Source: Halorubrum lacusprofundi ATCC 49239 (GTDB lineage: Archaea; Halobacteriota; Halobacteria; Halobacteriales; Haloferacaceae). Taken from it: a stretch of DNA of 64,000 nt. The notes below the pieces were generated by a model, which was not told where the DNA came from, searched no databases, and saw nothing but the letters and a program-made list of their open reading frames with translations. Positions within the stretch are counted from its first letter, which is position 1, and each line of letters starts with the position of its first letter. Positions 13,091 to 16,840 of this stretch are shown in pieces. The stretch covers positions 310,001-374,000 of the forward strand of contig NC_012029.1 of NCBI RefSeq assembly GCF_000022205.1, in the 5' to 3' direction. The translations under genes were made by a program, and so were the position numbers.

Positions 13091-13246
13091 TACGCGAATG
13101 TGGGCCGGGCGGCCCTTTATCCGTTCGGTCCGCGGCGATCCCCCGACACAACCTTTATCGCCGCATCGCTCTAGATGTCGGTAACGACGGCCGCGGCGCA
13201 CCGCCGCCGCGGCGACCCCGCTGCCGACCGAACGCGGTCTTCCCCC

Positions 13247-15379
13247 ATGAGCATCGACATCGACCCGCTGTCCGACGCGGCCGGGCTCACCGTCACGGAC
13301 CACATCGAGAACACGCAGTTCGAGGTGTACACCGACCGACCGGTCGAGCCGGCCGCGAGCCCCGAGGACGCCCACTACTTCCCGGTCGACGCGAGCGTGA
13401 CCGTCGAGACCGGGGCCATCGAGATCCCTCGCGTCGCTGTTGTCGAGACCCGCTGCGGCGACGGCACGCTGCTCACCCGCGGCGACTCCTACGCGATGCC
13501 CGCGGGGACGTACCACGTCGGGATCGACCCCGCCCCGACGAAGCTGTACCTCGCGTTCGCGTCGCCGTTCTCCGTGTCGACGACGGAGCGGACGACCCGG
13601 ATCGACCTCGACGCCCCCGCAGAGGTCACGCTCGGGTTCCGGTCGCTCCACCAAGTTCCCGCAGGGACGATCGAGACCCCGACCGACCCCGAGTCGCTGA
13701 TGGACGCCGTGTCGCTACTCGGCTCCGCTCTCCAGACGACGAGCCCGGAGCGGTCGTTCCCCACCCTTCGCGGGCACCCACCGCTGATCGAGCCGGGCGA
13801 GGAGTTCCGCGTCCCCGACCGAGTCGAACCGGTCGACTCCGGCATTCGGATCGTCGTCCCTCCGGAGTACCGCTACCTCTACCCGGTGGTCTCGCTCGCG
13901 TACTACTTCGCCGCCGACGTGGTCCCCGGCGATCCTCCCCGGATCGAGGGCGACGGCTGGACGCACCCTTTGGAGCCCGACTTCGAACGGCGGACCGGTG
14001 AGGTGCTCCGACAGGCGTTCCACTTTGACTGTCTCGCGCGCACGGAGGGGTTCTACCCGGTCGATCTCCACGAGCGCGAGACCACCGACCTCGACCTCGA
14101 CTGGGGCCGGTTGTACGACCTCCCGCTGGCGGAGCGACTCGGCGAGTACCTCGCGGTTCCGTTCGAGCGCGTCGAGCCGGAGCTTCCCCAGTGGACATTA
14201 ACGACCGACGTGCGCCCCGACCCCGAGAACGTGGAGCTGCTCCCGTTCGTCGCCGGCGAGCTGTCGATCGTCCGGTCTCCGGAGACGGTGACCCCCGCGA
14301 TGGCCAGTGGGGGCGATGGGCTCGGGTTCTTCCGCGCTCCGCGTGCCGACACGGCGTCGCTCGATCGAGACGAGTTCGTTCGGAGTACCGCCGGGACCGA
14401 ACCTACTCGCGGCGCCGACGCCTCGGCGGACCGCGGCGCGGTGGCGGCCGACACCGACTTCGTGCGACCCGAACCCGTCGACACGGTCGAGCACGCGTGG
14501 GTCGGCGCCGGCGTCCCGCTCGACGCCAACAAGGCCACCCTCGACGCGTACCACCGGCGACTGGAGGCCGGCGCGGTCGAGCAGTCGCGAATCTCCGTGC
14601 TCGTCGTCTGTAACGACGAGCAGATGCGCGAGGAGGGCGAGGTCGCGGACTTATACGGCCTCCGCGACATGGTCCAGTTCGACATCGAAGTGCGCCACGA
14701 CCTCACCCGCGAGGAGATGCGCGAGACGCTCCAGTCCGACGTCGACTTCCTCCACTACATCGGCCACGTCGACGACCGCGGAATGCAGTGTACCGACGAC
14801 TACCTCGATCTCACGGCCGAGGACCTCGACGTCGGCGTCAGCGCCTTCCTGCTCAACGCCTGCCAATCATACCAGCAGGGCGAGGCCTTGGTCCACCGCG
14901 GCTCCCGCGGCGGCATCGTCACCCTCTCCGACGTGGCGAACTCGCCGGCGACCCAGCTCGGCCGGATCATCGCTCGCCTGATGAACAGTGGGTTCAACCT
15001 TCGTGCCGCGCTTTACGTCGCGAAGCGAGAGCTGATCACCGGCCACCAGTACATCGTCGTCGGCGACGGCGGGACGACGATCTGTCATAGTCGGAGTGGA
15101 ATCGCACTTGTTCTCAATTTGGGTATAAATGAGTCCAATAGCTGGGATCTGGTCGCTGAGGGCTACCCCAACGGTCCGTATGGCGTCGGAACTATGAGTA
15201 ACTTAAACCTAGAAAAAGATGAATGTGAGCACGTTATTCCCTTTCAGATACACATATCAGATATAAAAATGGAAGAAATTGACTATTTCCTTGATCTCGA
15301 AAATACTCCGATCTTCTTTAATGACGACTTAATTTGGAACGACGAGCCTGCGCGACTCAGGGCCCTGCAACAGAGGTAG
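13247..15379 (+). CDS. CHAT-domain (caspase-like) protein with AT-rich C-terminus
   Basis: The 710-residue protein has a long N-terminal region of unknown function (residues 1-400) and a CHAT peptidase domain around residues 420-610. The catalytic dyad is visible: FLHYIGHVDDRG (His507) and FLLNACQSYQQG (Cys539), followed by RGGIVTLSDVANSPA. CHAT peptidases are clan CD cysteine proteases related to caspases. From about base 15085 (residue 613) the sequence changes abruptly to AT-rich codons through to the stop, unlike the GC-rich body. A TATA-like CTTTAT at 13153-13158 would start transcription near 13181, so ATG 13247 is preferred over ATG 13175. The last 23 bases overlap a convergent 43-residue gene. 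Substrate unknown. Confidence 0.82.
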   Translation: MSIDIDPLSDAAGLTVTDHIENTQFEVYTDRPVEPAASPEDAHYFPVDASVTVETGAIEIPRVAVVETRCGDGTLLTRGDSYAMPAGTYHVGIDPAPTKLYLAFASPFSVSTTERTTRIDLDAPAEVTLGFRSLHQVPAGTIETPTDPESLMDAVSLLGSALQTTSPERSFPTLRGHPPLIEPGEEFRVPDRVEPVDSGIRIVVPPEYRYLYPVVSLAYYFAADVVPGDPPRIEGDGWTHPLEPDFERRTGEVLRQAFHFDCLARTEGFYPVDLHERETTDLDLDWGRLYDLPLAERLGEYLAVPFERVEPELPQWTLTTDVRPDPENVELLPFVAGELSIVRSPETVTPAMASGGDGLGFFRAPRADTASLDRDEFVRSTAGTEPTRGADASADRGAVAADTDFVRPEPVDTVEHAWVGAGVPLDANKATLDAYHRRLEAGAVEQSRISVLVVCNDEQMREEGEVADLYGLRDMVQFDIEVRHDLTREEMRETLQSDVDFLHYIGHVDDRGMQCTDDYLDLTAEDLDVGVSAFLLNACQSYQQGEALVHRGSRGGIVTLSDVANSPATQLGRIIARLMNSGFNLRAALYVAKRELITGHQYIVVGDGGTTICHSRSGIALVLNLGINESNSWDLVAEGYPNGPYGVGTMSNLNLEKDECEHVIPFQIHISDIKMEEIDYFLDLENTPIFFNDDLIWNDEPARLRALQQR

Positions 15380-15488
15380 CTTGGTTCGCCGCCGCGGGCG
15401 CCGCCTGCGTCAGCAGGAGAAGCGCGGTGAACAGGACGCCGGCCATCTTGGGGTGCTCTGCCACGTAGTCTGCAACACTTTCGTGCAT
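15357..15488 (-). CDS. 43-residue single-helix membrane protein (DUF7503-like)
   Basis: This short gene is read on the minus strand from ATG 15488: MHESVADYVAEHPKMAGVLF, then a hydrophobic segment TALLLLTQAAPAAA and the tail NQATSVAGP before TGA. The pattern of acidic/amphipathic start, KMAGVLFTALLLLTQA helix and GP end fits my recollection of small haloarchaeal proteins grouped as DUF7503. A TATTAA element (minus-strand TTAATA) at 15510-15515 lies about 24 bases before the ATG, so the gene has its own leaderless promoter. Its 3' end overlaps the CHAT gene by 23 bases on the opposite strand. Function unknown; a partner, substrate or target of the CHAT protease is a hypothesis. Confidence 0.72.
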   Translation of the reverse strand: MHESVADYVAEHPKMAGVLFTALLLLTQAAPAAANQATSVAGP

Positions 15489-15509
15489 ATTACACAGAAT
15501 ATCGCGTGA

Positions 15510-15515
15510 TATTAA
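15510..15515 (-). promoter_or_regulatory. TATA box of the 43-residue membrane protein gene
   Basis: On the minus strand the AT-rich block reads TTAATA, centred about 24 bases before ATG 15488, in an otherwise AT-rich interval (15489-15590). Confidence 0.45.
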
Positions 15516-15697: not shown

Positions 15698-15946
15698 ATG
15701 ATTGACATCGACGCGACGCTCCGTGACGCGTTCGAGCACACCGACTACGACCTCGGCGACGTCGCCGTCAACCGGAAGCAGGTCCGGGTACCGGTGCTCC
15801 AGCAGGGTGCCGACCCCGACGCGCTCACCGCGGTGATCGAAGAGGCGCTCGGCGCGGACGCGGTCGTCGCCGCGACCGTCACCACCGAGGCCATCGACGG
15901 CGAGGACACCATCGGCACCGTCGTCTCGTTCCGGTACCAGCCGTGA
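15698..15946 (+). CDS. small conserved protein of unknown function
   Basis: The 82-residue acidic protein begins MIDIDATLRDAFEHTDYDLG and ends GTVVSFRYQP. It looks like a soluble alpha/beta domain with no cysteines and no membrane segment. I do not recognise a named family. The ATG at 15698 is chosen because the in-frame extension upstream (from 15578) is proline/arginine-rich and overlaps AT-rich non-coding sequence. ACGGAGGTAGGGTC before the start contains GGAGGT about 9 bases upstream, a good ribosome-binding site, so this message probably has a leader. The next gene on the same strand starts 84 bases later. Confidence 0.65.
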   Translation: MIDIDATLRDAFEHTDYDLGDVAVNRKQVRVPVLQQGADPDALTAVIEEALGADAVVAATVTTEAIDGEDTIGTVVSFRYQP

Positions 15947-16030
15947 ACGGGTTGCGGGGCTGATCGGCGCCGCCTGAACCGCTCTCCCGCGGTGGAACGC
16001 GGTACGGTTAACAGTGCGGTCTCCGTACAC

Positions 16031-16840
16031 ATGGCTCAGACGATGACGGCCGACGACGGACACGACGGCGTACAGTACCTCGCCGGATCCCCCGTCCGGG
16101 TCGCGATGCTCCGAGCGCTTCGGAGCGAACCGCGGCGTCCGGCGAGTCTCACGGCTGCGGTCGACGCGACGCGGACGACGATCCAGCGCATCCTCTCCGG
16201 GTTCCGCGAGCGGGACTGGGTCGTCAAGCGCGGCGCGGCCTACCACGTGACCCCGACCGGGAAACGGGTTCACGACGCGTACGAGGAGTTGCTCGACGAG
16301 GTTGAGCTCGCCGATCGGTACGGACAGTTCGCCGCCGACCTCGAACGCGTCGGCGCCGATTTCCCTCCCTCGGCGCTCGACACCGGAGAGTTGACCGTCG
16401 CGGCCGACCGGAACCCCCTCGCCGCCGTCGACCGACTCACCGAACTGCTACGCGAGGGGAGCGGCTCGGAAATCCGCGCCGTCTCGCCCGTCGTCATCCA
16501 GCAGTTCAACAATGCCGCGGCAGAGGCGCTCGACGCGGGCGCTGAGGTCGAACTCGTTATCGACCGCGACGTGGTCGAGGAATCGATCGCGGAGTTCGGC
16601 CCGGCGACCGATCGGGCGCTCCACGACGACGGCGCGACGGTGTACGTCTCCCCCGAACCGATCGAATACGGGGTCTTCCGGTACGACGATCTCGCGTGCG
16701 TGACCGCCTACGACAGCAGAAACAACCCCCGATGCGTGCTTGAATCGACGGACTCGGGAGTGGTCGACTGGGTCGACGACAAATTCGAGTCGTTCGTCGC
16801 CGAGGCTCAGTGCCTCTCCGGGGTCGTCGAGAACACTTGA
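16031..16840 (+). CDS. winged-helix regulator with FilR1-type C-terminal domain
   Basis: The 269-residue regulator has an N-terminal winged helix (about residues 12-75; RVAMLRALRSEPRRPASLTA, then VDATRTTIQRILSGFRERDW) and a C-terminal alpha/beta domain of the kind found in methanogenesis regulator FilR1 (DUF1724), ending CVTAYDSRNNPRCVLESTDS then VVDWVDDKFESF. Such haloarchaeal proteins are one-component transcription factors; the ligand is unknown. ATG 16031 (MAQTMTADDG) follows a GGTTAACAG stretch; ATG 16046 is an alternative. It is transcribed alone. Confidence 0.78.
   Translation: MAQTMTADDGHDGVQYLAGSPVRVAMLRALRSEPRRPASLTAAVDATRTTIQRILSGFRERDWVVKRGAAYHVTPTGKRVHDAYEELLDEVELADRYGQFAADLERVGADFPPSALDTGELTVAADRNPLAAVDRLTELLREGSGSEIRAVSPVVIQQFNNAAAEALDAGAEVELVIDRDVVEESIAEFGPATDRALHDDGATVYVSPEPIEYGVFRYDDLACVTAYDSRNNPRCVLESTDSGVVDWVDDKFESFVAEAQCLSGVVENT

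Follow-up and report, generated by a model that had tools for sequence, protein, structure and literature searches.

A CHAT gene converges on a DUF7503 gene

The window analysed here, a 64,000-nucleotide stretch of the Halorubrum lacusprofundi ATCC 49239 genome (contig NC_012029.1, positions 310,001 to 374,000), carries a gene for a 710-residue CHAT (caspase-like) protein that overlaps tail-to-tail by 23 bases with a gene for a 43-residue protein on the opposite strand (Table 1). The CHAT reading frame is already open from an ATG at 13175, and homologue alignments start near 13247. The Pfam CHAT match of the protein (17 bits, E = 0.0042) does not reach the 24-bit cut-off, and a profile search of PDB sequences retrieved no related chain. 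Its AlphaFold model (pLDDT 87, confident except in the linker) finds its best PDB matches in separase, SAVED-CHAT, Csx29 and gingipain R (E = 2.5e-6 to 1e-4), and the His507/Cys539 dyad, set in HxxGH and NAC motifs, is without variation among 55 aligned homologues. Modelled fold and dyad together mark the protein as a clan CD cysteine peptidase that is divergent by sequence. The N-terminal half (residues 1-353) is predicted to be first beta-rich and then helical, and contains the motifs PTLRGHPP and DC.RTEG...HER; a PDB fold search gave no convincing cover for this half. Pfam searches matched no TPR domain and no histidine kinase receptor feature, fold search describes the protein as CHAT plus a novel N-terminal half, and no export signal is visible.

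Table 1 Features of the CHAT–DUF7503 locus, in window coordinates
Feature	Position	Strand	Basis or remarks
CHAT (caspase-like) protein, 710 aa	13247..15379	+	Stop 15377-15379
CHAT N-terminal conserved half, aa 1-353	13247..14305	+	Model, alignment, fold search
CHAT low-confidence linker, aa 354-398	14306..14440	+	pLDDT < 50
CHAT catalytic domain, about aa 404-612	14456..15082	+	Pfam, model, fold search
His507 codon, HYIGH motif	14765..14767	+	Invariant
Cys539 codon, NAC.S motif	14861..14863	+	Invariant
CHAT C-terminal domain (CTD; putative specificity domain), about aa 613-710	15083..15376	+	Hypervariable, low GC3, invariant Trp697
Contiguous hypervariable cassette across both 3′ ends	15083..15383		Variability; local GC down to 0.32
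DUF7503 partner, 43 aa	15357..15488	-	Pfam full-length match
DUF7503 leader, codons 1-35: HP(K/R), hydrophobic core, (A/V)xA motif	15384..15488	-	Conserved, synonymous sites too
DUF7503 tail QATSVA-GP, codons 36-43	15360..15383	-	Hypervariable six residues and near-invariant Gly-Pro
Inverted repeat ATATC-ACGC-GATAT (ATATCACGCGATAT), just 5′ of the DUF7503 start	15499..15512	-	Candidate operator or hairpin

The small protein is a full-length member of Pfam family DUF7503 (PF24335; E = 8.9e-21, 73.7 bits against a cut-off of 27, profile positions 1-42 of 42). The initial annotation, made from the sequence of the window, had described a caspase-like CHAT protein with this dyad and a small converging 43-residue ORF overlapping it by 23 bases, and was right on both catalytic residues, the overlap and the ORF. 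Gly-Pro closes 155 of 159 distinct DUF7503 proteins, and charged residues make up 1.2% of their last nine positions; variants without the terminal Gly-Pro (loci L082, L084, L090, L158 and L220) end in, for example, VTID, CTID or GTVA. The basic residue of HP(K/R) is 99% conserved, and about 94% of sequences close the leader with an (A/V)xA pattern, which is typical of signal peptidase sites. In divergent long partners, basic residues precede the hydrophobic stretch and acidic residues follow it. This leader end and these flanks make export of the tail probable in most lineages; the likeness to signal peptides was judged from residue pattern rather than with a trained predictor. A role of Gly-Pro as a SecM-like translation-arrest signal is disfavoured, as some divergent partners carry it 3-7 residues before the end and a repeat-containing partner in Haloplanus, described below, carries internal copies.

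The region 5′ of DUF7503 is AT-rich, with a TATA-like stretch and the inverted repeat, and is partly kept in Halorubrum, in line with a putative promoter. The repeat occurs once in the window (0.01 copies expected) and is retained in several Halorubrum species; an Rfam search gave no match. Just past DUF7503 lie an 82-residue ORF with no Pfam match (15698-15946, + strand) and then an HVO_A0261/FilR1-type regulator (15992-16840).

DUF7503 genes face CHAT genes across haloarchaea

Relatives of the CHAT protein are present in 365 of 391 haloarchaeal genomes, and 335 of these 365 also encode DUF7503, which all 26 CHAT-less genomes lack (20 listed ones plus G128, G217, G219, G285, G299 and G382, which are absent from both match tables). 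A convergent CHAT gene was found at all 60 DUF7503 loci checked, comprising 30 picked by DUF7503 score alone and 30 further ones that included paralogues. In seven multicopy genomes every DUF7503 gene faces a CHAT gene (33/33) and 33 of 60 CHAT genes have a DUF7503 partner, and DUF7503 is present at 73 of 79 named CHAT loci. As a control, we looked at the same loci for a hydrophobic convergent ORF after 236 other genes: the strict form, with an exact Gly-Pro end, occurred after none, and a looser form, in which Gly-Pro could also lie close to the end, after one. The pairing is thus far above chance, and for DUF7503 it is obligate. The survey strongly supports the earlier suggestion of a two-part system, in that DUF7503 is never found away from CHAT and CHATs of this subfamily are usually paired. 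Other classes of the phylum have no DUF7503 and no close CHAT homologue, just distant CHAT relatives without the same C terminus.

Several CHAT genes whose partner gives no clear DUF7503 match are still opposed by a small hydrophobic protein that has Gly-Pro as its last residues or close to them. In genome G123, which belongs to the same family, there are about ten divergent CHAT genes (L246-L254, L097 and L114), mostly opposed by a hydrophobic protein whose acidic segment is longer and in which GP is terminal or nearly so (in some cases GPSNP or GPTNP). The window's own genome encodes a second, divergent CHAT protein (L276, G000:C2:1175500-1181000) with a different C terminus and no convergent partner, and its relatives elsewhere in Halorubrum resemble it. 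Tandem CHAT gene pairs with no detectable partner occur in Haladaptatus (L209, 5767-10306; L214, 5644-10331), and genome G012 has two identical tandem DUF7503 genes opposite one CHAT gene (L292, 223-500). In the plasmid records L161 and L162 the partner is present in the DNA at CHAT loci and absent from the public gene annotation.

The surroundings of the two genes vary from genus to genus, and the pair itself is therefore the unit. We rejected a conserved operon context, since DUF7503 alone is constant, and DUF7504 (PF24336) upstream and HalX regulators appear in subsets. DUF7504 adjoins the pair at L125-L128, L133, L136-L138, L141, L150 and L156-L158, mostly directly 5′ of CHAT on the same strand, and a HalX response regulator is frequently close to the pair in this subset; the two are possible third and fourth components. 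Spacing between the convergent genes is also variable: stop-to-stop gaps lie between -26 and +111 bases, and fewer than half of the measured pairs overlap. Stops lie at most 30 bases apart in 59 of 70 pairs, and a 4-base overlap is the commonest spacing.

Both 3′ ends form one hypervariable island

Comparison of 38 Halorubrum pairs reveals an island of about 300 bp with low GC that spans the CHAT CTD and the 6-8 DUF7503 residues preceding Gly-Pro. Up to residue 600, the linker excepted, CHAT proteins are about 85% identical, with a fourfold-site difference of about 0.35-0.38 and a GC3 of about 0.93; over the last 85 or so residues identity falls to 24-47%, the fourfold difference rises to 0.60-0.72 and GC3 drops to about 0.5. 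The same boundary divides DUF7503, with a fourfold difference of 0.22 in codons 1-35 and 0.70 in codons 36-43, the latter value including third positions in the Gly and Pro codons. Halorubrum species with 95% identical cores have CTDs that differ by about 62%, and divergence in a flanking control gene is uniform up to its end. The island is also present in genus g29 and is partial and less sharp in g42; across the three groups tabulated, GC3 is lower in the CTD than in the catalytic domain at 109 of 112 loci. A Trp is retained in 104 of 105 CTDs. Saturated synonymous change points to alleles that are old or were imported, or to a mutational process acting locally, rather than to plain loss of constraint; relaxed selection cannot account for the saturated synonymous sites, the low GC3 or the preserved Gly-Pro and Trp. 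The leader stands out in the other direction, its fourfold difference lying below that of CHAT, and this unusual synonymous conservation hints at a constraint at the RNA or DNA level.

Within the island, tail and CTD vary together independently of the core. In 36 Halorubrum pairs, tail and CTD distances are correlated when core distance is controlled for (partial r = 0.24-0.27, p = 0.0002-0.001); tail distance is unrelated to core distance (r = 0.005) and leader distance follows it (r = 0.54). In an independent set of 74 pairs from outside Halorubrum the tail–CTD correlation given the catalytic domain is again 0.27 (p = 0.0005-0.001), and leader and CTD are uncorrelated (r = 0.00). An artefact of overlapping DNA is excluded, as the result is unchanged with the CTD cut ahead of the overlap. 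Allele groups are scattered on the core tree: tails starting with Gln form a single clade on the CTD tree and are split among three positions of the core tree, and tail classes require 9 changes on the CTD tree (shuffled mean 22, none of 500 as low) versus 17 on the core tree. Linkage of neighbouring DNA inherited as a block could explain part of this covariation. The preserved Gly-Pro of the tail and the CTD Trp would fit a pair of peptide and binding pocket.

A soluble repeat protein takes the partner position in Haloplanus

No DUF7503 was found in six g13 genomes, placed in Haloplanus by the named relative L237. A soluble repeat protein built from 2-13 copies of ADGN(G/S)(G/S)(G/A)(I/V)SGP-xx is encoded at the partner position in these genomes and again overlaps CHAT by 4 bases. 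This protein has no evident signal peptide, no membrane segment and no HP(K/R) site. The CTD of the Haloplanus CHAT protein evolves at the core rate, its hypervariability gone, and two sister genomes of Haloplanus still have DUF7503 and a similar SGP tail (L044, L048; L125). A soluble array at the same spot indicates that what must persist is the tail rather than the membrane segment, and the missing signal peptide indicates that export is not universal. Because diversification and leader were lost together, diversification is perhaps tied to export, as far as one lineage can suggest. The initial annotation had left effector, substrate and antidote as roles for the small protein; a general membrane effector is disfavoured, given a partner that is soluble yet kept, as is a general membrane toxin on the same ground. 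Among substrate, antidote and ligand, the ligand role fits best.

Proposed function and alternatives

We propose, with a probability of roughly 0.45, that CHAT and DUF7503 constitute one module in which the DUF7503 tail, probably exported, is the cognate ligand of the CTD and controls the protease. DUF7503 would be a small precursor in which a conserved signal-peptide- or anchor-like leader precedes a short tail, uncharged and closed by Gly-Pro; this tail would bind the CTD of the neighbouring CHAT protein and binding would control proteolysis, with specificity being allelic as tail and CTD diversify together. Since the genes converge, the presumptive specificity segments lie adjacent between conserved flanks and homologous recombination can replace both together, and it is this adjacency, rather than the overlap, that appears to be the kept feature of the layout.

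The tail is nearly free of charge, unlike most haloarchaeal protein surfaces. This property, probable export and the lack of a visible CHAT export signal lead us to propose a secreted peptide that returns: the leader would be cleaved at AxA and the tail exported, and the peptide would then re-enter the cytosol, be read by the CTD and switch CHAT. By analogy with peptide pheromone systems, the most likely use of such a module would be self or kin recognition, or density sensing, through a secreted peptide and an intracellular receptor-protease. The fullest version, an archaeal peptide pheromone system spread widely among haloarchaea in which a secreted Gly-Pro-ending peptide of 8-10 residues is read by the CTD of an intracellular caspase-like protease and species-specific pherotypes are swapped between species as a single two-gene 3′-end cassette, is more speculative, and on sequence evidence we regard it as possible but doubtful.

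Next best after the secreted peptide is a membrane-tethered antidote, which seems unlikely. Here the tail of the paired DUF7503 would hold a harmful CHAT protein at its CTD, tethering and silencing it at the membrane, or in Haloplanus a soluble multivalent inhibitor would silence it, and co-diversification would stop cross-neutralisation among modules. DUF7503 is always accompanied by CHAT, a genome can have several pairs, some of them plasmid-borne, pairs are allele-specific, one tandem DUF7503 duplication exists, and the soluble Haloplanus form is cytosolic, as is CHAT. However, 27 of the 60 CHATs encoded by multicopy genomes have no DUF7503 (many being of other subfamilies), near-universal presence is atypical for addiction modules, the leader resembles a signal peptide, and the end of diversification in Haloplanus is left unexplained.

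Less probable again is an immune module, with CHAT as a defence protease whose interface with the tail diversifies away from virus-encoded inhibitors. CHAT proteases work in type III-E CRISPR (Csx29/Csx30) and SAVED-CHAT defence, to which the fold match points, and fast allelic turnover in multiple copies would suit an arms race. Against this, the pair has a near-core distribution in neighbourhoods that are not defence-like, PADLOC matched no known defence system, and 2.9 million viral contigs contained no match, which also counts against a virus origin. We consider it improbable that DUF7503 is a substrate or effector that CHAT cuts, for example after HP(K/R), freeing a membrane-active or signalling fragment much as caspases process gasdermins: separase and gingipain R, both fold neighbours, cleave after Arg and the basic residue of HP(K/R) is 99% conserved, but the covarying part is the tail and the Haloplanus partner remains in place without that site or a membrane segment. 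Mutual antisense control through an RNA duplex of the overlapping 3′ ends, suggested initially and in keeping with the closeness of most stops, is very improbable, being unsupported by a spacing that reaches 111 bases and leaves most pairs without overlap, and predicting neither the amino-acid constraint on Gly-Pro and the CTD Trp nor the covariation.

Comparison with known systems

Our search of the open-licence literature found no function for DUF7503 (PF24335), an uncharacterised family, no link from it to CHAT, and no publication on CHAT in haloarchaea. The pair looks as if it were a conserved self-recognition or signalling module with lock-and-key-like parts, undescribed as far as we found. 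The secreted-ligand reading offers a testable function for two uncharacterised genes that almost all haloarchaea carry, one of which encodes an archaeal relative of caspases. In the architecture of the locus, the convergent orientation brings the apparent specificity segments of both proteins together in a single exchangeable stretch of DNA. Little is known of archaeal signal molecules or of the genes behind them (PMC12240190); were the tail secreted, it would represent a peptide signal encoded by an archaeal gene and found together with its receptor. The quorum signal of Haloferax volcanii is described as a proteinase-K-resistant small molecule (PMC12240190), and so we do not equate it with the DUF7503 tail. 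H. volcanii itself has DUF7503, which makes genetics feasible.

Several known systems resemble the pair in part. Caspase or protease–gasdermin pairs likewise place a caspase-like protease beside a membrane-associated protein, but the partner of CHAT lacks a pore-forming domain, and in one genus it lacks a membrane segment as well. TPR-CHAT Csx29/Csx30 of type III-E CRISPR and SAVED-CHAT share the CHAT catalytic fold and a dedicated neighbour protein, whereas the haloarchaeal locus has no CRISPR or SAVED component and its partner, of about 43 residues or a repeat array, belongs to a co-varying cassette. ComQXPA and the agr locus, which is polymorphic in a similar way, combine an adjacent hypervariable peptide and sensing segment with distinct groups among close relatives. 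In the ComQXPA pherotype locus of Bacillus subtilis, a short pre-peptide adjoins the part of its receptor that senses it, and the two are hypervariable and co-exchanged (PMC6334282). In the haloarchaeal pair, too, the peptide and the candidate receptor-sensing domain are hypervariable, contiguous and covarying. ComQXPA and agr differ in having a membrane histidine kinase, co-directional genes and a modifying enzyme, where here a cytosolic CHAT protein, encoded convergently, is the candidate receptor. Rap-Phr and other RRNPP systems differ in that their receptors are TPR proteins, whereas the CHAT module lacks TPR, its genes converge and peptide reimport is only proposed; they resemble it in having a cytosolic receptor, for which CHAT is the candidate here, an adjoining precursor of about 40 residues in which the specific part would be the last few, and many paralogous pairs per genome, some plasmid-borne. 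With its AxA-type leader end and variable tail, DUF7503 could correspond to the short exported precursor of RRNPP systems; the Haloplanus form lacks the leader.
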